The notes under the pieces are model-generated. The model was not told where the DNA came from, searched no databases, and worked only from the letters and a program-made list of their open reading frames with translations. This document shows positions 28,244-41,330 of a stretch of DNA of 64,000 nucleotides, one piece after another. Position 1 is the first letter of the stretch, and each line of letters opens with the position of its first letter. Made by a program: the position numbers and the translations under genes. Source of the DNA: Aquirufa beregesia (GTDB taxonomy: Bacteria > Bacteroidota > Bacteroidia > Cytophagales > Spirosomataceae); NCBI RefSeq assembly GCF_011090385.1, contig NZ_SEWW01000001.1:496001-560000 (forward strand), given 5' to 3'.

Positions 28244-28426
28244 AGTGCTGATGGAGATAAAAACAAAAATACATTTTTTTCATTAGTAGGCTTAGAAATT
28301 CTGGGGGATAAACAATTCCTAGTTGATATTCAATTATTTAAAGATAGCTGGGTATAAATAATATGACTATGTCTTTTTATGTTTGTAGTTCTGATTGAAA
28401 ATTTTGCTTTTGAAAAACCATTTACG

Positions 28427-31400
28427 ATGAAATTAAAATTTCTTTATGCTCTTGGGCTCGTTTCCGCAATTTCCTATTCTTGTAGTAATTCCTTAGAAAA
28501 AGACACCTATCGGGTGATACTAGAAGATCAAGATAATTTGGCCGAAAAGGCTAAATTGGCCAAAGAGAAATTACCCATTAAAATTGCCCCAGGGTTACAG
28601 ATTACACGATTTGCCTCGGATTCATTAGCTCCAGATCCGGTGGCTATGGATATGGATGATCAGGGTGCCGTATACATTACTCGTACCAATCGTGGAAAAT
28701 ATTCTGAGTTCGATATTCGTGGGCATCGTGATTGGATGACAGAGTCCATTGGGTTTCAATCGGTGGCCGACAGAAAGGCCTTTTTACATAGGACCTTTGC
28801 CCCAGAAAATTCCGCCAAAAATGATTGGTTACCGGATTTAAATCAAGATGGAATTCATGATGTCAATGACTTAAAGGTTGAAAAAGAAGAAATCTGGAAA
28901 ATTGAAGATAAAAATGGAGATGGTTTCGCCGACCAAGCCACCCGCGTATACAACGGTTTTCACGAAGAATTTACCGACGTAACTGGGGGTATTTTGGTAC
29001 GTAAAAAAGATGCTTTTATCGCCGTTGGCCCTGATTTATGGCGTTTAAAAAACACGAAGAAAAACGGTCTTTTAACGGAACCTGTATCCATTTCAACGGG
29101 CTATGCGGTTCACATTGGTTTTGGTGGACATGGTATGTCGGGGGTAATCGAAGGGCCAGATGGCAAGATTTATTGGCAAATTGGAGACATTGGAGCCAAT
29201 ATTACGGCATTGGATGGAGAACAATATAAATATCCTAATTCTGGGGTAATCGTTCGTTCAAATCCAGATGGAAGTAATTTTGAGGTTTTTGCTTCTGGTT
29301 TAAGAAATACCCACGAATTTGTATTTGACCACTATGGAAATTTGATAAGTTCAGACAATGACGGTGACCATCCGGGTGAAAGTGAGCGTTTGGTACATAT
29401 TGTGGAAGGTTCAGATGCGGGTTGGAGATCCAACTGGCAATACGGAAAATATACTGACCCAGGTAATAATCTGTATAAAGTATGGATGGACGAAAAATTG
29501 TATGTGCCTCGCTGGAAAGGACAAGCTGCCTACATTATTCCTCCTATCAGAAACTATCATAATGGTCCGACAGGAATGTTGTTTAATCCAGGAACGGCCC
29601 TAGGTAAGAAATGGACAAATAAATTCTTTTTAGTGGAGTTTGTGGGTAATCCCAATGCTTCCCACATTTGGTCCTTTGACCTAAAACCTAAAGGAGCCAC
29701 GTTTGATTTCAAATCGGAAGAAGATGTTGTGAGTGGAATTTTACCTACAGGTATGCGTTTTGGCCCTGATGGAGCCTTGTACGCTGCCGACTGGGTAAAT
29801 GGCTGGGATGTGAAACATTATGGCCGAGTATGGAAGATTGATGTAGATACCCAAAACAACGATTTAGCACAAGAAAGAGCTGAAACAAAACGATTGATCC
29901 AATTGGATTATGAGAAACAGAACACGAATGCCTTGTATGATTTACTTTTCTACAACGACTTACGAGTACGTATGAAAGCTCAATTTGAGCTAGCTAAAAG
30001 AGGTAATGCTTCTGTTGCCCTATTTCAAAAAGCCATTCAACAAAAAGAAAATCAATTGGCTCGTATTCATGGAATATGGGGAATGGGACAGCTAGGAGCC
30101 ACAGATGTTACCGTAGGGGCTATGTTAGGGGAACAATTACAAGATCAAGATGAGGAAATAGTAGCTCAGGCGGCGAAAGTATTGGGAGATATTTTCAACA
30201 AAGATCATGAAGGGCGTTTAATTCAATTAATTGATTCCAAAAATCCCCGTGTTAGTTTCTTTGCATGTCAGGCTTTAGGAAGAATTAAATCAGAAAAGGC
30301 CATTCCAGGCTTATTGAAACTCATTGAAAAAAATAACGATGAGGATCATTACATCCGCCATGCGGCAGTTTTAGCTTTAGCGAGAATTGGAAAAGAAGAT
30401 CCTTTGGTTGCTTTGGCAGGTTCTTCAAATACGGCCCTAAAAACAGCAGCGGTACTAGTATTACGTCGTTTATCAAGCCCACAAATAGCTTTATTTTTAC
30501 AAGATTCAGATGAATATATTGCTACAGAAGCAGCAAGAGCCATTAATGACGATGAATCTATTCCAGCAGCTTTACCAGCTTTAGCCACAGCATTAAACAA
30601 CAAAGCGTGGAAAGGAGAAGCATTACTTCGTCGTGCGATCAATGCTTGTTTACGTGTAGGTACCAGTAAAGAGATTGATGCTTTGATTCTTTTCAGTGAA
30701 CGAAATGACATTTCGGATGTCATCCGTGCAGAGGCCATTGCTACCTTAGGATCTTGGGCTAATCCATCGGTGTTAGATCGAGTAGATGGTCGACATAGAG
30801 GTGTATTGCAAAGAAATCCAGCTGATGTGGTAGGTCGTATCTACCCTAAAATTGCCTCATTTTTAAGAAGTAATAATCCAGAAGTTTTAGTGGCAACAGC
30901 CAAATTGTTATCGGAATTAAAAATCACAGATTTCAAGAGTGAACAAACTCAAATTTTCTTAAATCATGCCAATGCCAAGGTGAGAGCGGCTCATTTGAGT
31001 TCTTTAGTAGCATTAAAAGACGCAAATCTATCCTTGATTATTCAAAAAGGCATGAATGATGCAGATCGAAGTGTTCGTGGAGCATCTTTAGGATTTTTAG
31101 ATAAGGTTGATTTGTCGAAAACTCAATTACCGAACGTGGTCAATCCGATTATGGAAAAGGGAAGTGTGATTGAACAACAACAATTATTACAAAGTATCGG
31201 AAAGATGCCAGTGGATAAAACAGACGATGTATTAGCTGATTTAATCCAAAGAATGGTGGCTAATAAATTATCCAATGATATCCGATTGGATTTAGTGGAA
31301 GCAGTGGAAGCGAGCAATTCACAAAAACTGATTGCCAAATTAGATGCATTAAAGACCAAAGGGACTTTGACCGATGAATTTAAAGATGCCATGTTTGGTG

Positions 31401-31816
31401 GAAACATTCAAGCAGGTAATGCCATTTTCTACAGAAATCAAACCGTTCAATGCGTTCGTTGTCATACTGCTGGGGGAGAAGGTGGCATTGTTGGACCATC
31501 GTTAAAAGGAATTGGTCGTCGTTTAAGCAGAGAGCAAATTTTACAAGCTTTGATTGAGCCAAGTGCGAGAATTGCTCCTGGATATGGCACCATCAATTTG
31601 AAATTAACAGATGGTCAAGAAGTAAGTGGAACCGTTATTTCTGAGACAGAAAGCATGATTCAGCTAAAAACTTCGGAAGCTGAACCTTTGAAAATTGCAA
31701 TATCTCGCATCAAGTCAAGAGAGAATTTCCCATCCAGTATGCCACCTATGGGCAGCCTGATGTCGAAGAGAGAAATTAGAGATGTTGTAGAATTTTTATC
31801 ATCTTTAAGAAATTAA
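28427..31816 (+). CDS. Membrane-anchored dehydrogenase-like protein with HEAT repeats and cytochrome c domain (PVC-type)
   Basis: 1129 residues from the ATG at 28427, chosen because it gives a lipoprotein signal (ALGLVSAISYSC). Residues ~40-470 resemble the six-bladed propeller of GDH/PQQ-like proteins. Residues ~500-960 are HEAT-like helical repeats with many Arg/Ala helices. The end (~990-1129) is a mono-heme cytochrome c domain with C1009-V-R-C1012-H1013 and KGIGRRLSREQILQALIEPS. This is the large PVC-type heme-binding CxxCH protein common in Planctomycetes and Cytophagales. Sugar or alcohol oxidation is assumed by homology. Confidence 0.9.
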   Translation: MKLKFLYALGLVSAISYSCSNSLEKDTYRVILEDQDNLAEKAKLAKEKLPIKIAPGLQITRFASDSLAPDPVAMDMDDQGAVYITRTNRGKYSEFDIRGHRDWMTESIGFQSVADRKAFLHRTFAPENSAKNDWLPDLNQDGIHDVNDLKVEKEEIWKIEDKNGDGFADQATRVYNGFHEEFTDVTGGILVRKKDAFIAVGPDLWRLKNTKKNGLLTEPVSISTGYAVHIGFGGHGMSGVIEGPDGKIYWQIGDIGANITALDGEQYKYPNSGVIVRSNPDGSNFEVFASGLRNTHEFVFDHYGNLISSDNDGDHPGESERLVHIVEGSDAGWRSNWQYGKYTDPGNNLYKVWMDEKLYVPRWKGQAAYIIPPIRNYHNGPTGMLFNPGTALGKKWTNKFFLVEFVGNPNASHIWSFDLKPKGATFDFKSEEDVVSGILPTGMRFGPDGALYAADWVNGWDVKHYGRVWKIDVDTQNNDLAQERAETKRLIQLDYEKQNTNALYDLLFYNDLRVRMKAQFELAKRGNASVALFQKAIQQKENQLARIHGIWGMGQLGATDVTVGAMLGEQLQDQDEEIVAQAAKVLGDIFNKDHEGRLIQLIDSKNPRVSFFACQALGRIKSEKAIPGLLKLIEKNNDEDHYIRHAAVLALARIGKEDPLVALAGSSNTALKTAAVLVLRRLSSPQIALFLQDSDEYIATEAARAINDDESIPAALPALATALNNKAWKGEALLRRAINACLRVGTSKEIDALILFSERNDISDVIRAEAIATLGSWANPSVLDRVDGRHRGVLQRNPADVVGRIYPKIASFLRSNNPEVLVATAKLLSELKITDFKSEQTQIFLNHANAKVRAAHLSSLVALKDANLSLIIQKGMNDADRSVRGASLGFLDKVDLSKTQLPNVVNPIMEKGSVIEQQQLLQSIGKMPVDKTDDVLADLIQRMVANKLSNDIRLDLVEAVEASNSQKLIAKLDALKTKGTLTDEFKDAMFGGNIQAGNAIFYRNQTVQCVRCHTAGGEGGIVGPSLKGIGRRLSREQILQALIEPSARIAPGYGTINLKLTDGQEVSGTVISETESMIQLKTSEAEPLKIAISRIKSRENFPSSMPPMGSLMSKREIRDVVEFLSSLRN

Positions 31817-31844
31817 ATATACATTTGTGCCGTTATAGGTTTAT

Positions 31845-32213
31845 ATGAAATTCAATCGTTATTTCTTTTTGTTTATCAGTATCTTCTTTTTCTTGGTCAC
31901 GGCCTCGATGAAGCAAATAATTGGTTTAACTCAAGAAAGTACAATTGAAAACAATTTTAAGGTTAAAAAAACAGAGCAAAAAGAGCTTGGTTTTTTTAAC
32001 CTTTTATTTGAAGAAGACCGCGATACTACGGAAGAAGACGATGATGAAACAGAATGTGTTCATTTTGACTTTTCTGATTTTGATTTATCTAGCCACTTTT
32101 CATTCAATAATCCCTATTCAGGGGCATTAAAATCTGTAGCTATTCCATCTTTGATGGCTAATAGCTTTTCAACAACCCCATTTTTCATACTTTTCAGGAA
32201 TATCAGGCTGTAG
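31845..32213 (+). CDS. Small acidic membrane-anchored or exported protein, unrecognised
   Basis: 122 residues. An N-terminal hydrophobic segment (YFFLFISIFFFLVTA) is followed by a Lys-rich stretch and then an acidic block rich in Asp, Glu and Thr (~60-80), with one Cys. The C-terminal half is Ser/Phe-rich and ends FFILFRNIRL. It lies 28 bp after the cytochrome gene and 142 bp before the SulP gene, and looks like a companion of either. No known family is apparent. The overlapping ORF of 61 codons in another frame is judged a shadow. Confidence 0.45.
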   Translation: MKFNRYFFLFISIFFFLVTASMKQIIGLTQESTIENNFKVKKTEQKELGFFNLLFEEDRDTTEEDDDETECVHFDFSDFDLSSHFSFNNPYSGALKSVAIPSLMANSFSTTPFFILFRNIRL

Positions 32214-32355
32214 GATTAATCGCATAGATTATCCTTTATTCAATTCGCCTATTGGATCCTATCCAAATTTTACCACCGCTCATTGATTTTTCTTTAAAAA
32301 TTGCTTGACAATTTTACTTTTAAAAGAGGAATGAATGCGCACATGAAAAATAAAA

Positions 32356-33954
32356 ATGAAAAATGTAACGCCTCAAATCCCCAAAGATGGAATAGCTGGA
32401 TTGAAAGAAAATTTCAGTGCCGATGCTGTTTCAGGTTTTATTGTATTTTTATTAGCCTTGCCTTTAAGTTTAGGTATTGCTAAAGCTTCTGAATTCCCAC
32501 CATTGATGGGATTATTATCCGCCATTATTGGTGGTATTATTGTCAGTCTATTTTCAGGTTCACGCTTAACGATTAAAGGGCCTGCAGCAGGACTTATTGT
32601 CATTATTGTAGGTGCTGTAGCTGATTTTGGTGGGGGAGAGCAGGGCTGGCATTATGCCCTAGGAGCTATCGTAGTGGCAGGAATCGTGCAGATCCTTTTT
32701 GGTGTTTTTAAACTCGGAAAATTAGTTGATTTCTTCCCCCTTTCTGCCGTTCATGGTATGTTGGCCGCAATTGGTTTAATTATCATATTCAAGCAAATAC
32801 CGGTTTTATTGAATGTTAATCCATTATTAGCTAAAGGGAAAAGCCCATTTGAATTGGCAGCCTCGATTCCTCAATTTGTGATGAATTTAGATAGAAATGG
32901 TGCTATTGTGGGTATGCTAAGTTTTATCATCATGATGACTTGGCAAAAGATTCCAGTAAATTTTTTACGTAAGATTCCAGCTGCCTTGATTGTATTGTGC
33001 ATTGCTATTCCTGCAGAGATTTTTTTAGATTTTAAGCATACTGAACCAGCATCCGCCTTAGTGAAAATTGGCAATCTGATTGATAATATCCATGTAAACG
33101 TTGACTTTTCGGGATTTGCCAATAAAATGGTATTTATCAAATATGTAATCATGTTTGCTTTGGTTGGTTCTTTAGAGTCATTATTGACCGTTAAGGCCAT
33201 AGACATGCAAGATCCATACAAGCGCAAATCCAATCCAAACAAAGATTTAATTGCCGTTGGTATCGGGAATACCTTGGTAGGAATTTTAGGTGGTTTACCC
33301 ATGATTTCCGAAGTGGCGCGTAGTTCGGCGAACGTCAACAATGGAGCCCAAACACGCTGGGCAAACTTCTTCCATGGTTTCTTTATTTTGGTGTTTGTGG
33401 TATTTGCGGCCCCTGTCATTGAACTTATTCCCAATGCGGCATTAGCGGCCATGTTGGTTTCAGTGGGTATCAAATTAGCTCATCCCAAGGAGTTCATCCA
33501 TATTTTCAACATCGGTAAAGGTCAATTGGCTATCTTTTTAGTCACTATTTTCTTTACCTTGTATGAAGATTTATTGATTGGTATTGCTGTAGGTATGTTG
33601 GTTAAAATACTCATTCATTTGTTAAACGGAGCACCAATATCTAGCTTCTTTAAATCCAATGTAACTGTTTCTTTCAATGATGATCAATATTTAGTTGAGG
33701 TAACTAAAGCGGCTGTATTTACGAATTATATGGGATTAAAAGCTAAATTGGATGCCATTCCTCAAGGAATGCATGTCACCATGGATTTTAGTAATACGCA
33801 TTTGGTAGATCACTCGGTCATGGAAAATTTGCATCATTTTGAGGCAGATTACATCGCTGCAGGGGGTACATTTACCATCATTGGCTTTGACGAGCATATT
33901 TTGCTTTCCGAACACAAATTGGCAGCTAGAAAAAAGAAACAAATAATTTCTTAA
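32356..33954 (+). CDS. SulP family inorganic anion transporter (bicarbonate/sulfate type)
   Basis: 532 residues. Around twelve hydrophobic segments start at DAVSGFIVFLLALPLSLGIA, and the conserved LFSGSRLTIKGPAAGLIVII and GMLAAIGLIIIFKQIP regions match SulP. A short cytoplasmic STAS-like tail (~435-532, VTMDFSNTHLVDHSVME) closes it. In this context, directly before dabA-dabB, bicarbonate uptake is likely (inference). SulP members may also carry sulfate. Confidence 0.92.
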   Translation: MKNVTPQIPKDGIAGLKENFSADAVSGFIVFLLALPLSLGIAKASEFPPLMGLLSAIIGGIIVSLFSGSRLTIKGPAAGLIVIIVGAVADFGGGEQGWHYALGAIVVAGIVQILFGVFKLGKLVDFFPLSAVHGMLAAIGLIIIFKQIPVLLNVNPLLAKGKSPFELAASIPQFVMNLDRNGAIVGMLSFIIMMTWQKIPVNFLRKIPAALIVLCIAIPAEIFLDFKHTEPASALVKIGNLIDNIHVNVDFSGFANKMVFIKYVIMFALVGSLESLLTVKAIDMQDPYKRKSNPNKDLIAVGIGNTLVGILGGLPMISEVARSSANVNNGAQTRWANFFHGFFILVFVVFAAPVIELIPNAALAAMLVSVGIKLAHPKEFIHIFNIGKGQLAIFLVTIFFTLYEDLLIGIAVGMLVKILIHLLNGAPISSFFKSNVTVSFNDDQYLVEVTKAAVFTNYMGLKAKLDAIPQGMHVTMDFSNTHLVDHSVMENLHHFEADYIAAGGTFTIIGFDEHILLSEHKLAARKKKQIIS

Positions 33955-33999
33955 TTTCATTTTGAGAATCAAATCTCATTCCGCCTACATTTTTCATAC

Positions 34000-34031
34000 A
34001 TTCCAATGAGAATTTTTCCTCTCATTGGAAT
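34000..34031 (+). promoter_or_regulatory. Perfect 12-bp hairpin in the SulP-dabA gap
   Basis: ATTCCAATGAGA (34000-34011) pairs with TCTCATTGGAAT (34020-34031) around an 8-nt loop, ending 15 nt before the dabA ATG. There is no T-run after it on the plus strand, so it may be a leader structure or processing site rather than a terminator. AGGAAG just before the ATG resembles a Shine-Dalgarno site. Confidence 0.55.
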
Positions 34032-34046
34032 AATAAATTAAGGAAG

Positions 34047-36551
34047 ATGACTACAACACATAAGGGATTTCATCTAGAGCATGTTCTGCATGAATTAAAA
34101 CATTATTTGCCTGCACAGGCTCCATTAATGGATTTTGTGCATCATAATACTTTGCATGCCTTTCAACATTTACCTTTTCATGAGGCACTAAGAAAGGCAC
34201 ATACCACCTTGGGGTATCAAGTTTATCTTAGTGTAGATCAGTTTCGTGAACTTCACCATGCTAAACGGATCAATGACGATATTTTAAATAATGTCATTGA
34301 AAAGAAAAAAGGAGCGAAAAAAACGACTCAGTGGAAATACAAATTATTACATCAAGAGTTAGAAAGTGTTCCTAGTCCTAGAATTGGAGCTTTACGCGGT
34401 CAATGGAAAAAGGTGTACAATATCGATTTGGATTCGATGGTACATCCAAATTTATTTCGTTTAATATCCAGTTATCTAGATCAAGGGATTTCAATTTGGC
34501 ATTTTCCCATCGAGAATAAAAGCTTTTTAGAAGCGATTAAAGAGCTTGAAAAAAAGAGCTGGCTTAGTTTATTTAAAGGCAAAAGAGCCAAAAATATGCT
34601 CCTAGATGAGCATACTACCCTAGAAGATTTATTGAGCATTCTGGTAGGTTCACATCCTCATCTGTATGAACAATACCTCTTTGACCAACAATTTGCCCAT
34701 CAGGGATGGTCTGGAATGGTTTCTACCGTTGAGGATTTACCACAAACCTTGTTAGATCGTAGGCAAATAAGCCTGCATGATTTGATCATGCTCGAATGCT
34801 TATTGGAAATTGATACCATTGATTATCTATTATCAAGCGGTTGGATTGGCTTAGGAAATACCTTAGAAAATCCGCTTCCTTCTTTATTGGATCCTATTGA
34901 GCATTCAGAAGTCATGGAAATTCTATCTATTTTCCAGGAAGCATTTGAATGGACATATTATGACCAAGTTTTAGCGGGAATTCAGCAAGAGTCTAAAATG
35001 CCTAAATCGACTGGCACTAAAAGCTTTCAAGGTTTATTTTGCATTGACGACCGCGAATGTTCTTTCCGAAGATACTTGGAATCTATTGATCCTCATTGTG
35101 ATACCTATGGAACGCCTGGTTTCTTTAGTGTAGAATTCTTTTATCAACCCATTGGAGGTAAATTTTATTCTAAGCTATGTCCTGCTCCCGTAACTCCCAA
35201 ATACCTGATTAAAGAAATAGGAGATGAGAAGAAATGGGAAACTGACCCACATTTTTCCAAGCATAGTCATAATTTTTATACGGGCTGGATTATATCTCAA
35301 ACCTTAGGTTTTTGGTCGGCACTCAAATTATTTGCTAATATTTTCAAACCAAGTATGAGTCCTGCTACGGCTTCCTCTTTGCGTCACATGGATAAATTTT
35401 CCCAATTGCAAGTGGATTACGATGCCTTAATCCAACAAGAAAATGGCTTGCAAATTGGCTTTAAAATCGATGAAATGGCCAATCGGGTGGAAGGGATGTT
35501 AAAAAGTATTGGCTTGGTCAAAGATTTTGCGCCAATCGTTTATGCCGTGGGGCATGGTGCAAGCTCTGTTAATAATCCACATTATGCTGCTTACGACTGT
35601 GGAGCTTGTTCGGGTAGAGCCGGTTCTGTAAATGCTCGTGTGGTGAGCCAAATGGCCAATAAACCGGAAGTGCGTGCGATTTTGAGAGAAAGAGGCATTG
35701 ATATTCCTGATGAAACCATTTTTGTAGGAGCATTGCATGATACTACCCGCGATGAGATGGTATTTTATGATGATGAAATCAAGGATGAATTTTATGTGAA
35801 ATTACATGCTCAGCATGCTAAGGTATTTGAAAGTGCACTTGATTTAAATGCGAAAGAACGTTCTAGACGTTTTGAATCCATCAATACCGAACTGAGTCCG
35901 AAGGAAATTCATGAAAAAATTCGCTTGCGTTCGGTATCTCTTTTTGAGCCTCGCCCTGAGTTAAACCATGCGACCAATGCCTTGTGTTTAGTAGGCCGCC
36001 GGGAGCTTTCCAAAGGGATTTTCTTGGATAGAAGGTCTTTCTTGAACTCCTTTGATTATCGGGTAGATCCGGAAGGAAATTATTTGTTAAACATTCTAAA
36101 AGCGGCTGCGCCCGTTTGTGGTGGTATTAATTTGGAATATTATTTCTCTCGAGTAGACAGTGAAAAATTGGGAGCAGGGACCAAATTACCTCATAATGTG
36201 ATGGGGCTATTTGGAGTAGCCAATGGTATCGATGGTGATTTGCGACCTGGTTTACCTTCCCAAATGACGGAAGTGCATGATCCCATTCGACTGATGCTCA
36301 TCGTGGAACATTTCCCGGATGTTGTATTAAAAACCATTCAAAGATCTACTGAAACCTATGAATGGTTCATCAACGATTGGGTGATCTTAGCCTCCGTCAA
36401 TCCAGAAACCAAAGAAGTGCAAATATTCGAAAATGGGCAATTCAATCCTTACAAACCTATTAATAAGCAATTGGAACATATTCGTGAAATAGAAAGCTTA
36501 TTAGAAAGTAATCAAGAGAATTTTCCCGTGTATTTAATCCAACAAGACTAA
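34047..36551 (+). CDS. dabA: DabA, catalytic subunit of the DAB inorganic-carbon accumulation complex
   Basis: 834 residues, UPF0753/DUF2309 family. The four residues that bind zinc in the Halothiobacillus protein are matched by order and spacing: C332 and D334 in FCIDDRE, H503 in VGHGASS and C518 in YDCGACSG (C-D two apart, H-C fifteen apart, exactly as there). The enzyme is a vectorial beta-carbonic-anhydrase-like subunit that traps CO2 as bicarbonate in the cytoplasm using the proton or sodium gradient. It is followed after 5 bp by dabB. Confidence 0.95.
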   Translation: MTTTHKGFHLEHVLHELKHYLPAQAPLMDFVHHNTLHAFQHLPFHEALRKAHTTLGYQVYLSVDQFRELHHAKRINDDILNNVIEKKKGAKKTTQWKYKLLHQELESVPSPRIGALRGQWKKVYNIDLDSMVHPNLFRLISSYLDQGISIWHFPIENKSFLEAIKELEKKSWLSLFKGKRAKNMLLDEHTTLEDLLSILVGSHPHLYEQYLFDQQFAHQGWSGMVSTVEDLPQTLLDRRQISLHDLIMLECLLEIDTIDYLLSSGWIGLGNTLENPLPSLLDPIEHSEVMEILSIFQEAFEWTYYDQVLAGIQQESKMPKSTGTKSFQGLFCIDDRECSFRRYLESIDPHCDTYGTPGFFSVEFFYQPIGGKFYSKLCPAPVTPKYLIKEIGDEKKWETDPHFSKHSHNFYTGWIISQTLGFWSALKLFANIFKPSMSPATASSLRHMDKFSQLQVDYDALIQQENGLQIGFKIDEMANRVEGMLKSIGLVKDFAPIVYAVGHGASSVNNPHYAAYDCGACSGRAGSVNARVVSQMANKPEVRAILRERGIDIPDETIFVGALHDTTRDEMVFYDDEIKDEFYVKLHAQHAKVFESALDLNAKERSRRFESINTELSPKEIHEKIRLRSVSLFEPRPELNHATNALCLVGRRELSKGIFLDRRSFLNSFDYRVDPEGNYLLNILKAAAPVCGGINLEYYFSRVDSEKLGAGTKLPHNVMGLFGVANGIDGDLRPGLPSQMTEVHDPIRLMLIVEHFPDVVLKTIQRSTETYEWFINDWVILASVNPETKEVQIFENGQFNPYKPINKQLEHIREIESLLESNQENFPVYLIQQD

Positions 36552-36556
36552 TTTCC

Positions 36557-38422
36557 ATGCAAAATTACCTTCCCATATTTATTTTAATTCCTCTGGCGGG
36601 TTTTTTGATAAGCTTAGTCTTACCCAAAAACGACGAGAGAAAAATATCATTTACGGCATTTGGAACCCTAGGAGTTCAATTGCTTGTGGCTGTATTGTTT
36701 GTTGCCAACTGGTTAGGCCTAGGCGCTCCAGACTGGCAAATGACAGGTTGGATTCTATTTAAAAACAGTGATTATGTATTCCAACTTGACTTTCTATTTG
36801 ATTATATCACCAGTGTATATCTATTAGTAGGAGCTATTTTAACCTTTTTGGTCACGCTGTATTCCCGTTTTTACTTACACCGAGAACCTGGATATAAACG
36901 CTTTTTTAATACCACACTTTTCTTCTATTTGGGGTATTGTATCACCATTTTAGCAGGAAATATGGAAACCCTGTTCATCGGTTGGGAAATGTTAGGAATA
37001 TCTTCCTTCCTCTTGATTTCCTTTTATCGTGAGCGGTATTTACCAGTTAAAAATGCCGTCAAAGTGTTTTCCATTTATCGGATAGGAGATGTGGGAATCA
37101 TTTTAGCCATGTGGGCCAGCCATCATTTATGGCATCAGAACATTACTTTTTCTCAATTGAAGAATGCGGAATTAGTACATGAACATTTGCAAACTCATAG
37201 CTTTATTGGGGTATTTATTTCCTTAATGATTCTCGTTTCAGCTAGTGCAAAATCGGCCCAATTACCCTTTTCATCTTGGCTTCCAAGAGCCATGGAAGGC
37301 CCAACACCTTCGAGTGCCATTTTTTATGGTTCTTTGTCGGTCCATATTGGCGTATTTTTAATGATGAGAACATTTCCGTTTTGGGAGCACCAAATTTCCA
37401 TTCGCATCCTCATTGCAGCCATGGGACTGATTACGGCGATAATTGCTACTGGAATAGCTAGGGTACAATCTTCTGTGAAAAGTCAGATAGCATATTCTTC
37501 TATAGCTCAAATTGGCTTGATTTTCATTGAAATATCCCTGGGATTTGAAAAATTAGCTCTGTTTCATTTTGCAGGAAATGCCTTTTTAAGAACCTACCAA
37601 TTGCTGGTGTCTCCATCGGTAGTTAGCTATTTGATTCGAGAACAGTTTTATCATTTTGAACCACGAGATAAGACCGTGGAAGATTCGTTTTCTGATAAAA
37701 TCCAAAACACCTTGTATTTGCTTTGTTTGAAGGAATGGAATTTAGACTCCATCATGTATCAATATCTTTGGAATCCAATGAAATGGGCAGGAAACAAGCT
37801 TAATTTCCTGACTGTCAAAAGATTAATAGGGATTTTTGTCCCCATTTTAATGGGTATTTTTATCATTAAAGAAAGTAATTACTTTAGTAATGATTGGACG
37901 CTATACATGCCCATAATTCTAGGATCTATTGGATTAATTTTTGTATTGAAATCTTTCACGCAAAGAAGAAGCCTACGTTTAAGCTGGATTCTGGTCATAA
38001 TCAATCACATTACTATAGCTTTGGCTATTTCATTTAATGAAAGTTATGACAGTAAAGAAACCTGGATATATTTAAGCGGAATACTCATGGCGGGTATCAT
38101 AGGTTATGCCTGTATCATGCGATTATTCCGTTTGGAAGGCAAAATACTCTTGAACCGCTTCCACGGTTTATCAGAAGAACATCCTAAAATTGCTTTCGTC
38201 TTTTTATTGGCTTGTTTGGGATTAACAGGTTTTCCAATAACACCTACTTTTATCGGTGAAGATGTCATTTTTTCCCATATTCATGAGGATCAATTTGCCT
38301 TAGCTGCTGTAGTTTCCTTGAGCTTCATTTTAGATGGACTTTCCATTATGCGTATTTACGCCCGTATTTTTATGGGTCCAAATTCTAAGACGCATACTGA
38401 ATTCTCCAATCGTTATTTTTAA
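36557..38422 (+). CDS. dabB: DabB, NuoL/MrpA-like ion-channel partner of DabA
   Basis: 621 residues, about fifteen hydrophobic segments. The NuoL/ND5-type core has GWEMLGISSFLLISFYRERY (conserved helix Glu) and SASAKSAQLPFSSWLPRAMEGPTPSSA (conserved Lys). It is the proton- or sodium-conducting membrane partner that energises DabA. There is no other complex I gene nearby, so a DAB role fits best. It ends the cluster, followed by a terminator. Confidence 0.93.
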   Translation: MQNYLPIFILIPLAGFLISLVLPKNDERKISFTAFGTLGVQLLVAVLFVANWLGLGAPDWQMTGWILFKNSDYVFQLDFLFDYITSVYLLVGAILTFLVTLYSRFYLHREPGYKRFFNTTLFFYLGYCITILAGNMETLFIGWEMLGISSFLLISFYRERYLPVKNAVKVFSIYRIGDVGIILAMWASHHLWHQNITFSQLKNAELVHEHLQTHSFIGVFISLMILVSASAKSAQLPFSSWLPRAMEGPTPSSAIFYGSLSVHIGVFLMMRTFPFWEHQISIRILIAAMGLITAIIATGIARVQSSVKSQIAYSSIAQIGLIFIEISLGFEKLALFHFAGNAFLRTYQLLVSPSVVSYLIREQFYHFEPRDKTVEDSFSDKIQNTLYLLCLKEWNLDSIMYQYLWNPMKWAGNKLNFLTVKRLIGIFVPILMGIFIIKESNYFSNDWTLYMPIILGSIGLIFVLKSFTQRRSLRLSWILVIINHITIALAISFNESYDSKETWIYLSGILMAGIIGYACIMRLFRLEGKILLNRFHGLSEEHPKIAFVFLLACLGLTGFPITPTFIGEDVIFSHIHEDQFALAAVVSLSFILDGLSIMRIYARIFMGPNSKTHTEFSNRYF

Positions 38423-38449
38423 CAAAACCCAAGACAATCCGTGTTTGCT

Positions 38450-38480
38450 AGCGAACTCCTGAAAAGGGTTCGCTTTTTTT
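38450..38480 (+). terminator. Intrinsic terminator after dabB
   Basis: AGCGAAC at 38450-38456 and GTTCGCT at 38468-38474 form a stem around a short Pro-like loop, followed by T7. It closes the SulP-dabA-dabB transcript. Confidence 0.8.
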
Positions 38481-38502
38481 ATTGAAAAATAGTAAGATAG
38501 AA

Positions 38503-38532
38503 TTGAACAATTTCAAAATATGAATATCTTTA
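38503..38532 (+). promoter_or_regulatory. Candidate promoter of the GH30 operon
   Basis: TTG at 38503-38505 is followed 19 nt later by TATCTTTA at 38525-38532, one base from the Bacteroidota TAnnTTTG box. The GH30 start codon is 24 nt downstream. Confidence 0.35.
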
Positions 38533-38556
38533 AGCTTGCAATCTAATACCTAGTTT

Positions 38557-39963
38557 ATGAATGTAGTAAAAGCTAATCCAAAATGCATTTGGATGCTTTT
38601 TATGCTGTTAATTCCTTTGAGCATGAAAGGACAATCCATTGAGAATTGGATTTCCCTTCCAAAGAAAAAACAGATGTTTCAAAAATACCCCAATCTGGCC
38701 TGGGACACAAGAAATATAAGCCGTCAAACCAATCCCATCAATTTAAATCCTCAAGGCTTAGATCAAACGGTGGATGGATTTGGCTATACATTAACAGGTG
38801 GCAGTGCCCATTTAATTCAAGCATTGGATTCCCAGACTAAACGAGAGCTTTTACAAGAACTATTTGGCAATAAACTGAACCAAGTAGGTATTTCTGTACT
38901 GAGAATTAGCATAGGGGCTTCAGATATGGATGAAAAGGTATTTTCATATGATGACGTCCCAATGGGAAAAGAAGATCTTACTCTTGAAAACTTTAGTTTA
39001 CATGAAGACAAAAAAGCTTTAATTCCTCTTTTAATTGAGATTTTGAGCATTAATCCCAAAATAAAAATATTCGCTACTCCTTGGAGTCCTCCGACCTGGA
39101 TGAAAGATAATCATGAAACCAAAGGAGGTAAATTACAACCAACCTATTATGAGGTATATGCCCGGTATTTCATCCGATACATCCAAGAAATGAAGAAATT
39201 GGGGATCAACATACATGCCGTAACCCCGCAAAATGAACCTTTGCATCCCGGCAATAACCCTAGTTTATCCATGTCGGCAGAGGAACAAATGGTATTTATA
39301 CGCGATTTTTTAGGTCCACAGTTTCAGAAAAATCGAATCTCCACAAAAATCATTTGTTATGATCATAATTGCGATAAACCTGAATATCCTATTACTATTC
39401 TTAATGATCCACAAGCCAGAAAGTATGTCGATGGATCGGCTTTTCATCTATACAATGGAGATATTAGCGCATTAGCACAAGTAAGGACAAAGCATCCAGA
39501 TAAAAACCTCTATTTCACAGAACAATGGACAGGAGTGAAAGGAGATTTTTATGGAGATTTCATGTGGCATATCAAAAACGTAGTCATAGGCTCTATGAAT
39601 CAAGGTGCTAAAACGGCCTTGGAATGGAATTTAGCCAATGATCAAAACCTAGGTCCCCATAGTCCAGGTGGATGTACCGAATGCTTGGGAGCCATTACCT
39701 TGAGCCAAGGAATACAGCGAAATGTTGCTTATTATATTATTGCTCAAGCTTCCTCTTTTATTCCTGCAGGTTCAAAACGAATTAAATTAAACCAATCACC
39801 TAATTTACCCATGGTGGCTTTCCTTAGACCTGATAAAAAAATCTGTTTATTGGTTCAAAATGAAGGCCCTGAAAAACAAAAAATACCCATTCAATACCTA
39901 AACAAAACGGTTGAACTGGAAATCCCAGGCTCATCTGTTTCAACTTTTATATTCAAGCTATGA
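38557..39963 (+). CDS. Glycoside hydrolase family 30 (glucosylceramidase-like)
   Basis: 468 residues with a signal peptide (~1-26). The GH30 fold shows DGFGYTLTGGSA, TPWSPPTWMK, VTPQNEPL with the acid/base Glu, and LYFTEQWTG with the nucleophile Glu, followed by a C-terminal beta-domain. Members cleave beta-glucosyl or beta-xylosyl bonds. Specificity is not evident. It is the first gene of a four-gene operon, overlapping the next by 4 bp (ATGA). Confidence 0.92.
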   Translation: MNVVKANPKCIWMLFMLLIPLSMKGQSIENWISLPKKKQMFQKYPNLAWDTRNISRQTNPINLNPQGLDQTVDGFGYTLTGGSAHLIQALDSQTKRELLQELFGNKLNQVGISVLRISIGASDMDEKVFSYDDVPMGKEDLTLENFSLHEDKKALIPLLIEILSINPKIKIFATPWSPPTWMKDNHETKGGKLQPTYYEVYARYFIRYIQEMKKLGINIHAVTPQNEPLHPGNNPSLSMSAEEQMVFIRDFLGPQFQKNRISTKIICYDHNCDKPEYPITILNDPQARKYVDGSAFHLYNGDISALAQVRTKHPDKNLYFTEQWTGVKGDFYGDFMWHIKNVVIGSMNQGAKTALEWNLANDQNLGPHSPGGCTECLGAITLSQGIQRNVAYYIIAQASSFIPAGSKRIKLNQSPNLPMVAFLRPDKKICLLVQNEGPEKQKIPIQYLNKTVELEIPGSSVSTFIFKL

Positions 39964-41330
39964 AAACATTCAACATTAATCGAAGACATTTTTTAAAAGG
40001 TGCCACCGCCAGTTTAGCCCTGTCTCAATTCGGTGCTTATGGCCTTGACTTAATTCATCCCGACAAACCTTTGCGAGTAGCCTTAATAGGAACTGGTTGG
40101 TATGGAAAAAGTGATCTATTCCGACTTATCCAAGTAGTTCCAGTAGAAGTAGTGGCGCTATGTGATGTCGATAAAAACCAGTTAAATCAAGCTGGTAAAT
40201 TGGTGAGTGAACGTCAAAAATCAGGTAAAGTACCGCGTCTATATGGAGACTACCGTAAGCTTTTGAAGGAAAACGAATTGGACATTGTGTTAATAGGCAG
40301 TCCTGATCATTGGCATCCTTTACAAATGATCGAAGCAGTAAAGGCAGGAGCTAATGTCTATGTACAAAAACCCATTTCTGTGGATGTTTTAGAAGGGGAG
40401 GCCATGGTAGCGGCCGCGAGAAAATATGGAAAAGTAGTACAAGTGGGTACTCAAAGAAAAAGTACGCCGCATTTAATTCATGCCAAAAAAGAAATCATCG
40501 ATAAAGGCCTCTTAGGAAAAGTCGCTCACGTGGAAATGTATTGTTATTACCACATGAGAAATAACGGAAATCCACCTGTTCAGGCGGTTCCAGACTATTT
40601 TGATTATGAGATGTGGACAGGGCCTGCACCTATGAGACCCTACGATGGAAGCCCGCATATCCGTTGGTGGAGAACGTTCAAGGAATATGGCAATGGTATC
40701 ATGGGTGATATGTGTATCCACATGTTTGATACGACTCGTTGGATGTTGGATTTAGGCTGGCCAAAACGTATCAGCTCTCAAGGTGGAATTTATGTACAAA
40801 AAGAAGGGAAATCCAATATTTCAGATACTCAATCCGCTGTTTTTGAATACGATGGTTTAAACTGCGTATGGCAGCACCGCACTTGGGGTACACCGAATGA
40901 CCCTGAATATCCTTGGGGATTAACCATCTATGGTGAAAAAGGTACCTTGCGTGCTAGCACCATGAAATATGATTTTACTCCGACAGATTCCAAGCAAAAA
41001 AGCCTTCACATGGATGTAATTTATGAAAAAGAAAAATATCCAGAAGATCTAACCGAGGAACGAATTGAATTAAATGCTGCCCCAGCTACACGTTTACACA
41101 TGTTGGATTTCTTGGCTGCCATTGATAAAAAATCCAAACCTATAGCCGACATCAGTGAAGGACATATTTCTACGGCAAGTTGCTTGTTAGCTAATGTTTC
41201 CATGGATTTAGGGGGAAGACCTTTAATTTATGATCCAAGTGCCCAAATTATTGTCAATGATCCCCAAGCCACTGCCTTGTTGGCAAGGCCATATCGTGGA
41301 CCATGGAATAGAAACATGTTGAAATCATAA
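39960..41330 (+). CDS. Tat-exported Gfo/Idh/MocA family oxidoreductase
   Basis: 456 residues. A Tat signal (NINRRHFLKGAT) is followed by a Rossmann domain with RVALIGTGWYGKS and the GSPDHWHP, then VQKPISVD motifs of the family. The C-terminal domain has the IRWWRTFKEYGNGIMGDM region and a late SCLLANVSMDLGRP-like end. It should oxidise or epimerise a sugar derivative using NAD, possibly as a periplasmic glycosidase-type Gfo protein. Coupled to the GH30 gene. Confidence 0.92.
   Translation: MKTFNINRRHFLKGATASLALSQFGAYGLDLIHPDKPLRVALIGTGWYGKSDLFRLIQVVPVEVVALCDVDKNQLNQAGKLVSERQKSGKVPRLYGDYRKLLKENELDIVLIGSPDHWHPLQMIEAVKAGANVYVQKPISVDVLEGEAMVAAARKYGKVVQVGTQRKSTPHLIHAKKEIIDKGLLGKVAHVEMYCYYHMRNNGNPPVQAVPDYFDYEMWTGPAPMRPYDGSPHIRWWRTFKEYGNGIMGDMCIHMFDTTRWMLDLGWPKRISSQGGIYVQKEGKSNISDTQSAVFEYDGLNCVWQHRTWGTPNDPEYPWGLTIYGEKGTLRASTMKYDFTPTDSKQKSLHMDVIYEKEKYPEDLTEERIELNAAPATRLHMLDFLAAIDKKSKPIADISEGHISTASCLLANVSMDLGGRPLIYDPSAQIIVNDPQATALLARPYRGPWNRNMLKS

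Follow-up and report, generated by a model that had tools for sequence, protein, structure and literature searches.

The closest described relatives of the locus analyzed here are DAB systems. The locus lies in a 64,000-nucleotide stretch of DNA (the window) that is part of the 3.23-Mb Aquirufa-like genome of a freshwater bacterium (G000), and it consists of a small open reading frame (ORF) of 122 amino acids (aa), a gene for a SulP transporter, dabA, and dabB, in that order on the forward strand. DAB2 of Halothiobacillus neapolitanus (PDB 9rd0; PMC13144422) has in common with it, in the part of that report that was available, the zinc site, the Asp-Arg dyad, and the NuoL-like N-terminal half of DabB. 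In contrast to DAB2, the window DabB is longer, has a C-terminus like that of MrpD, and carries E144, Y257, N341, and R345; there is no equivalent of DabA Glu444, and SulP and the small ORF are attached. MpsAB of Staphylococcus aureus is likewise a DAB homologue that supplies bicarbonate in a heterotroph; Na+ coupling was proposed for it, and the accessible portion of the paper mentions neither SulP nor a leader (PMC6689103). A link between SulP and DabA has been known since 2017 for DabA genes upstream of a NuoL homologue (PMC5700660). The 'Clade C' neighborhoods of that report (YbcC [COG3002], a NuoL homologue, and a COG0659 sulfate permease), which it called frequent, have the same dabA-dabB order and a SulP neighbor. 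They had no assigned function at the time (DUF2309), and the available text does not mention a leader ORF, carbonic-anhydrase clusters, or the variant residues of DabB.

The small ORF resembles a different type of element, the CutF/CruR (DUF2946) copper sensors, which are short exported ORFs directly upstream of the genes they control, with a conserved C-terminal segment and a downstream hairpin. According to the part of the report available, copper binding to the nascent exported CutF slows translation and opens the hairpin before the next gene, and relatives of CutF also precede OEP genes (PMC9973294). Unlike CutF, the window ORF has no Cys/His metal motif and no DUF2946 match but an acidic stretch instead, its family is followed mostly by inorganic-carbon genes, and its hairpin encloses the stop codon.

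We propose that the locus is an inorganic-carbon supply operon fronted by a cis-acting leader, and we give this explanation as a whole a probability of about 0.55. DabA, a cytoplasmic zinc subunit resembling beta-carbonic anhydrases, and DabB, an ion channel resembling NuoL and MrpD, would use an ion gradient to drive hydration of CO2 to bicarbonate, and SulP would carry bicarbonate or a counter-anion over the same membrane. The bicarbonate would feed pyruvate carboxylase and biosynthetic carboxylations in this heterotroph. This variant of DabB would retain its own second half-channel, similar to NuoM and MrpD, along with the NuoL-like Glu144. A ribosome translating and exporting the leader ORF would meet a stop codon that lies inside an RNA hairpin; its progress would set expression of the genes behind, and the acidic stretch would perhaps sense an extracytoplasmic ion or pH.

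The DAB genes

The window encodes a DAB system with an intact active site. dabA (34047-36551, 834 aa) matches Pfam PF10070 with 713 bits (cut-off 25), and dabB (36557-38422, 621 aa, the long form) matches PF00361 and PF00662 (Proton_antipo_M/N). DabA residues C332, D334, R336, H503, and C518 align with C351, D353, R355, H524, and C539 of DabA2 (PDB 9rd0) and are invariant across a 63-row alignment. The features that mark the DAB family are all present: PF10070, Cys-His-Cys zinc ligands with the Asp-Arg dyad, and an adjacent NuoL-like DabB. A reading of this DNA made from the letters alone (the sequence-only reading) had placed the four zinc residues at exactly the spacing known in Halothiobacillus. 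The residues were correctly identified and none is lost in the alignment, but the spacing is not identical: the Cys-Asp (+2) and His-Cys (+15) distances equal those of DabA2, whereas Asp to His is 169 residues here and 171 there. A fold search with a DabA model gave no match at E ≤ 0.001 in the library searched, which may not contain the solved DabA2 and so speaks neither for nor against the assignment. The closest named DabA is that of A. aurantiipilula (95% identity), in a comparison from which the genome's own record may have been left out.

Among the Bacteroidota loci examined there were two types of DAB locus. In the dabB-dabA type (12 loci), DabB has 494-561 aa and DabA is 26-31% identical to that of the window. 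In the window type, the order was dabA-dabB in 124 of 124 deduplicated rows with both genes in sequence (six further rows had no DabB in the available sequence), most DabB proteins have about 622 aa, and DabA is at least 46% identical to that of the window. A metagenome-assembled genome labeled Planctomycetota (L122) has two back-to-back DAB pairs, both dabA-dabB, and further NuoL-like genes; one of its DabA proteins is 32% identical to that of the window, with a DabB of 676 aa. Two other loci (L084 and L117) have an extra NuoL/Mrp-like gene of 660-675 aa near dabA; that of L084 is closest to hydrogenase-4 subunit B models and has its own ORF of the leader family.

DabB of the window differs from DAB2 along the presumed ion path. 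It aligns with NuoL over residues 3-363, with E144 and K232 at NuoL E144 and K229. Both residues had been pointed out in the sequence-only reading and are present, but the Glu is not a mark of DAB, as Ile151 stands at that position in DAB2 (PMC13144422, available part). Candidate path residues in the window protein are E144, D178, K232, K308, H337, N341, R345, and the C-terminal E568-D569. Among 56 aligned long DabB sequences, E144, Y257, N341, and R345 are invariant, and K308, H337, K232, and D178 are kept. By our own mapping, through the NuoL alignment and a profile alignment of both DabB types, the four invariant residues sit at DAB2 I151, H260, H343, and K347. The substitutions H260A, H343A, and K347A impaired DAB2, and replacement of DabA Glu444 abolished its activity (PMC13144422, as far as available). 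Q418 aligns with Glu444 in the window DabA, and no conserved acidic residue was seen near it in the alignment; Q418 and Y257/N341/R345 stand in place of the residues of the DAB2 subgroup.

The C-terminal part of DabB may provide a substitute. It resembles MrpD (E 1e-4 in a profile comparison), D569 is invariant and E568 at least 90% conserved in the 56 sequences, and we read the E568-D569 segment as matching NuoL TM12, which carries Lys399-Asp400. In DAB2 the role of that pair was assigned to DabA Glu444 (PMC13144422, available part). Only the N-terminal 339 columns aligned when the profiles of both DabB types were compared. Complex I NuoL was the best fold match to a DabB structure model among the matches listed; DabB2 was not among the 50 listed. 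Judged from these alignments, the window lineage is a DAB variant: its DabB is long and MrpD-like at the C-terminus, and positions of the DAB2 proton path carry invariant changes. Such a natural variant could be used to ask which DAB2 residues are essential for coupling.

SulP linkage and metabolic setting

SulP is linked to DAB in the window lineage. The SulP gene (32356-33954, 532 aa; Sulfate_transp PF00916, 222 bits) is followed by dabA, dabB, and an intrinsic terminator-like hairpin of nine pairs and a T-run (38450-38474, + strand), consistent with the earlier description of three consecutive genes on one strand ending in a terminator. A scan of 30000-40000 gave nine terminator sites versus 7.7 in shuffles, this one having the most pairs. 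A DAB-type SulP gene was within 5 kb in 67 of 98 deduplicated rows with a window-type DabA (downstream on the same strand in 37, upstream on the same strand in 17, upstream and divergent in 13). When only loci flanked by 5 kb or more on each side were counted, the proportion was 62/88 for the window type (46/64 plus 16/24 class-wide) and 0/10 for the dabB-dabA type (Fisher p 1.8e-5); for the latter it was 0/12 whatever the flanks. Close relatives remain among the 98 and 88 rows, and L122 was excluded from the comparison set because of its dabA-dabB order and its 32% identical DabA. In the class-wide search, 47 of 198 genomes had a DabA, and the 40 regions examined comprised four dabB-dabA loci, four already sampled, and 32 new. 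The linkage of SulP with DAB is conserved in the window lineage. The cluster proposed in the sequence-only reading is recurrent but not new; we reproduced the linkage of PMC5700660.

Carbonic anhydrase genes recur at these loci. Eight new loci with full flanks lacked a DAB-type SulP, and in five of these (L206, L207, L211, L215, and L222) another type of SulP and a carbonic anhydrase were beside dabA. The same combination is clustered with dabAB in L042, L107, L119, L121, and L196, and L104 has a carbonic anhydrase in the cluster but not the second SulP type. The genome of the window contains a related arrangement on contig C11, where a SulP gene adjoins the single beta-carbonic anhydrase gene; like the DAB locus, it joins SulP to a CO2-hydrating partner and has a leader of the same family, but its SulP belongs to a different clade and is 33-37% identical to that of the window. 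Four loci (L040, L046, L049, and L064) encode a SulP of 730-748 aa with an extra C-terminal part of about 200 aa. We considered a fusion of SulP to carbonic anhydrase, but L040, the one scanned, matched no carbonic-anhydrase model, and no Pfam model matched its extra part.

In a SulP tree of 95 rows, DAB-linked SulP fell within a 73-row clade (support 98; 65 DAB-linked, seven alone, one nearest to a carbonic anhydrase) apart from carbonic-anhydrase-linked SulP. The window SulP grouped with neither the BicA nor the sulfate-permease (SULTR4;1) reference, the DAB-linked proteins forming a Bacteroidota clade of their own; the references were one BicA and one sulfate permease, both fragments on very long branches. 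Glu274 is at the position of Glu241 of SLC26Dg and of an Asp in BicA, in alignments with PDB 5da0 and 6ki1, which we take to be SLC26Dg and BicA, respectively.

In Aquirufa, one and the same chromosomal site carries leader-SulP-dabA-dabB, leader-dabA-dabB-SulP, or SulP alone (G006 and G012). In two genomes (L065 in G019 and L068 in G014), DabA is 54-55% identical to that of the window and the adjoining SulP 75%, a pattern suggestive of DAB replacement independent of SulP. In L066 (G082), dabA is broken into two open frames.

The gene content of the genome fits an inorganic-carbon module in a heterotroph, and this assignment, already made in the sequence-only reading, is well supported by the conserved active-site residues. 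Profile searches of G000 found no match for RuBisCO, PEP carboxylase, or rhodopsin. They did find a 1289-aa open frame with a PYC_OADA domain, which we read as pyruvate carboxylase. Since this gene and the beta-carbonic anhydrase are present and RuBisCO and PEP carboxylase were not found, the likely role of the bicarbonate is in anaplerosis and biosynthesis, in agreement with the anaplerotic use suggested earlier. Calvin-cycle autotrophy was rejected for the lack of a RuBisCO match. Light-driven uptake through rhodopsin was also rejected: besides the lack of a match in G000, rhodopsin was found in 10/19 DAB-bearing and 15/19 DAB-lacking Aquirufa genomes. PF00484 was missing from 5/19 DAB-bearing versus 0/19 DAB-lacking genomes, but those five are 72-93% complete, and replacement of carbonic anhydrase by DAB in Aquirufa is only suggested. 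Bacteroidota are widespread aquatic heterotrophs, and their acquisition of bicarbonate seems little studied.

The small ORF, its family, and the RNA at its stop codon

The small ORF (31845-32213, + strand) is most likely a cis-acting leader that tunes inorganic-carbon uptake, judging from its position, its relatives, and the RNA at its end. It is the most unusual part of the locus and was not discussed in the sequence-only reading, which took 31845-38422 as SulP-dabA-dabB; the end of that interval holds, but its start is that of the ORF and not of SulP. By eye, the protein has a signal peptide or anchor, an acidic stretch (LLFEEDRDTTEEDDDE), and the C-terminus FFILFRNIRL. It had no Pfam or NCBIfam match; Pfam, DUF2946 included, likewise matched none of three other members.

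ORFs of this kind are found preferentially upstream of dabA and SulP. We used a filter for a signal-like N-terminus and an acidic patch. Filter-positive ORFs were upstream of 46/93 window-type DabA, 24/70 DAB-type SulP, and 6/17 other SulP genes, compared to 6/88 window-type DabB, 1/9 other-type DabB, 0/8 other-type DabA, and 11/472 control genes. Genes near contig ends were left out of these counts (2, 2, 3, 0, 1, 0, and 81, respectively). A hidden Markov model (HMM) built from 53 ORFs of other genera, after three doubtful ones (L042, L045, and L059) were dropped, found the window ORF at E 3.1e-8 and all 15 held-out Aquirufa ORFs, that of the window included. It also found 14 of 857 other small ORFs at E ≤ 0.001, ten of which themselves precede dabA or SulP and four of which do not.

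An iterated search over 2.33 Mb (3383 small ORFs) gave 100 members of the family. The gene that follows is DabA for 60, DAB-type SulP for 31, and other SulP for five (96/100, partly by construction); one precedes a NuoL/hydrogenase-like gene, one a TolC-like gene, as relatives of CutF precede OEP genes, and two have no gene within 500 bp. A member was present in 80 of 127 window-type loci with 700 bp upstream. Because the training rows were chosen by position, the independent evidence comes from the class sample, in which 13 of 13 hits in genomes outside the training set precede dabA or SulP (17/17 before removal of four in three already-sampled loci). The whole genome of the window has two members at E ≤ 0.001, the window ORF and the one before the carbonic-anhydrase-linked SulP, both training rows. 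Among 37 Aquirufa genomes, the leader was found in 18/19 with DAB (12 of the 18 being training rows) and 0/18 without; the remaining DAB-bearing genome, G031, has a contig end inside dabA. A porin-like gene follows the family member in three other Aquirufa genomes (L243, L244, and L245); that of L245 matches ExtI weakly, below the cut-off. A weak ExtI match was also seen in L168, where, as in L169, a porin-like gene adjoins a lone DAB-type SulP. A leader-type ORF before a TonB receptor (L144) reached only E 0.004 and was not counted.

The RNA around the leader stop codon has more structure than matched junctions. A two-tier hairpin (32205-32250, + strand) encloses the stop codon in a single-sequence fold, the outer stem pairing 32205-32208 with 32247-32250 and the inner 32212-32221 with 32227-32235; the fold of 32171-32375 has a z-score of -3.0. 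By eye, in single-sequence folds, 13 of the 16 Aquirufa loci have both tiers, and another (L050) has only the inner one. In the 13 loci, the final codons of the ORF are paired to bases some 40 nt further on, and the inner stem, which coincides with the stop codon or follows it immediately, has arms that vary between species and still pair. In the set, 81.8% of hairpin cells pair, versus 29.6-63.1% when the pairing is slid. Leader junctions (n = 98) had a mean folding z-score of -2.35. The mean was -1.15 in a control of 110 matched co-directional junctions out of 478 (p 4e-7) and -0.36 in an earlier control of 75 junctions that was matched less closely. No known RNA family reached its gathering score in 31500-39000.

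Sequence conservation also suggests constraint on the RNA. In an alignment of six Aquirufa loci, the first 60 nt or so after the leader stop (32214-32275), within the intergenic region before SulP (32214-32355), are strongly conserved and look more so than the middle of the ORF. Synonymous divergence (dS) of the leader was 0.37-0.61 against four relatives, a third to two thirds of that of neighboring genes (0.65-1.77), and in two of the four comparisons it was below every 121-codon window of the neighbors. Against a fifth, more distant relative it was 1.64, with 1.98 for SulP and 2.68 for DabA. The ratio of nonsynonymous to synonymous divergence (dN/dS) was 0.15-0.25 against five relatives. 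The reduced dS together with the stop-codon hairpin in 13/16 loci suggests constraint at the RNA level.

These properties resemble those of CutF. The family appears to consist of fast-evolving, signal-bearing, acidic ORFs at the 5' end of gene groups, with a conserved C-terminus, RNA constraint, and a stop-codon hairpin. Of the traits expected of an exported leader, the upstream position and conserved C-terminus were seen, the signal sequence was recognized by eye and by a hydrophobicity filter only, and the junction structure was seen by z-score and single folds, not by RNAalifold. We found no report of a leader for inorganic-carbon genes among the matches listed in the open-license literature. 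The leader, if confirmed, would extend exported nascent-chain sensing from copper to inorganic carbon or a linked ion. A wider version, in which Bacteroidota run inorganic-carbon uptake through a family of such sensors, many dabAB, SulP, and SulP-carbonic-anhydrase operons having their own leader that is read out at the stop-codon hairpin and reports a signal from outside the cytoplasm (bicarbonate or pH, or a divalent cation that the acidic stretch would bind), we put forward only tentatively.

Other explanations for the locus

Several results count against a leader-controlled inorganic-carbon operon. The leader was not detected in 47/127 window-type loci or in 20 of the 32 new class-wide loci (present in 12). 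The two Aquirufa loci with divergent DAB (L065 and L068) fold differently, with neither tier of the hairpin, and the junction sample still contains related rows and near-copies. RNAalifold found no consensus structure on the 16-sequence Aquirufa alignment, so the case for structure rests on single-sequence folds and z-scores, and covariation was weak (4 double-changed cells versus 2.2 shuffled; 68 of 500 shuffles were as high). The middle of the leader (K42, T43, E44, E56, and E57) is as conserved in Aquirufa as its end, which also suits an ordinary secreted protein. Lastly, SulP scored below every substrate-specific cut-off compared (BicA, DauA, and SulP subfamily models), with 146 bits against a cut-off of 880 for the BicA equivalog NF050096. 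Because of this and its position apart from the references, the 'bicarbonate-type' label given in the sequence-only reading is drawn from gene context, which favors it, and not from family membership, which does not.

The conserved middle leads to a serious rival, one we would not choose but hold to have a substantial chance: the product of the small ORF may be an accessory subunit or a chaperone of SulP or DAB, located in the periplasm or membrane, or an anion or cation buffer, rather than a regulator. Purifying selection and a conserved internal motif would be expected of such a protein, the ORF tracks DAB in Aquirufa, with none detected in either genome whose site holds only SulP, and DAB1 of Halothiobacillus includes a small transmembrane protein (PMC13144422, available part). 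However, the ORF is found at the 5' end of its group whether SulP, dabA, or the second SulP type comes next; of 13 divergent SulP/dabA pairs, 8 have a separate copy before each gene; the gene behind some members is porin-like or TolC-like; and the low dS and the hairpin suggest selection on RNA. The other two rivals concern the transporters. With its ion path altered at positions that matter in DAB2, Glu444 among them, the DAB lineage could work in another way than DAB2, such as the Na+/bicarbonate symport proposed for MpsAB. We consider this unlikely, as the zinc site and Asp-Arg dyad are fully kept, K308, H337, K232, and D178 remain, and Glu444 is not universal in DAB, being Ser in six of eight Bacteroidota DabA of the dabB-dabA type. 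Less probable still is that SulP carries sulfate or another anion, its link with DAB reflecting charge balance or chance. Its homologues include sulfate permeases. Genes for sulfate assimilation are present in the genome (PAPS_reduct has two matches at C41, beside a gene read as cysN), and neither of its only two SulP genes is near them. Against this stand the conserved linkage with DAB, the clusters with carbonic anhydrase, and a clade apart from SULTR4;1 (on a long branch) and hence not one grouping with sulfate transporters only.

Upstream of the leader ORF and ending 28 bp before it is a gene for a large protein with DUF7133, HEAT repeats, and a cytochrome c domain (28379-31816, + strand). 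A gene of this type adjoins the same site in other Aquirufa too.

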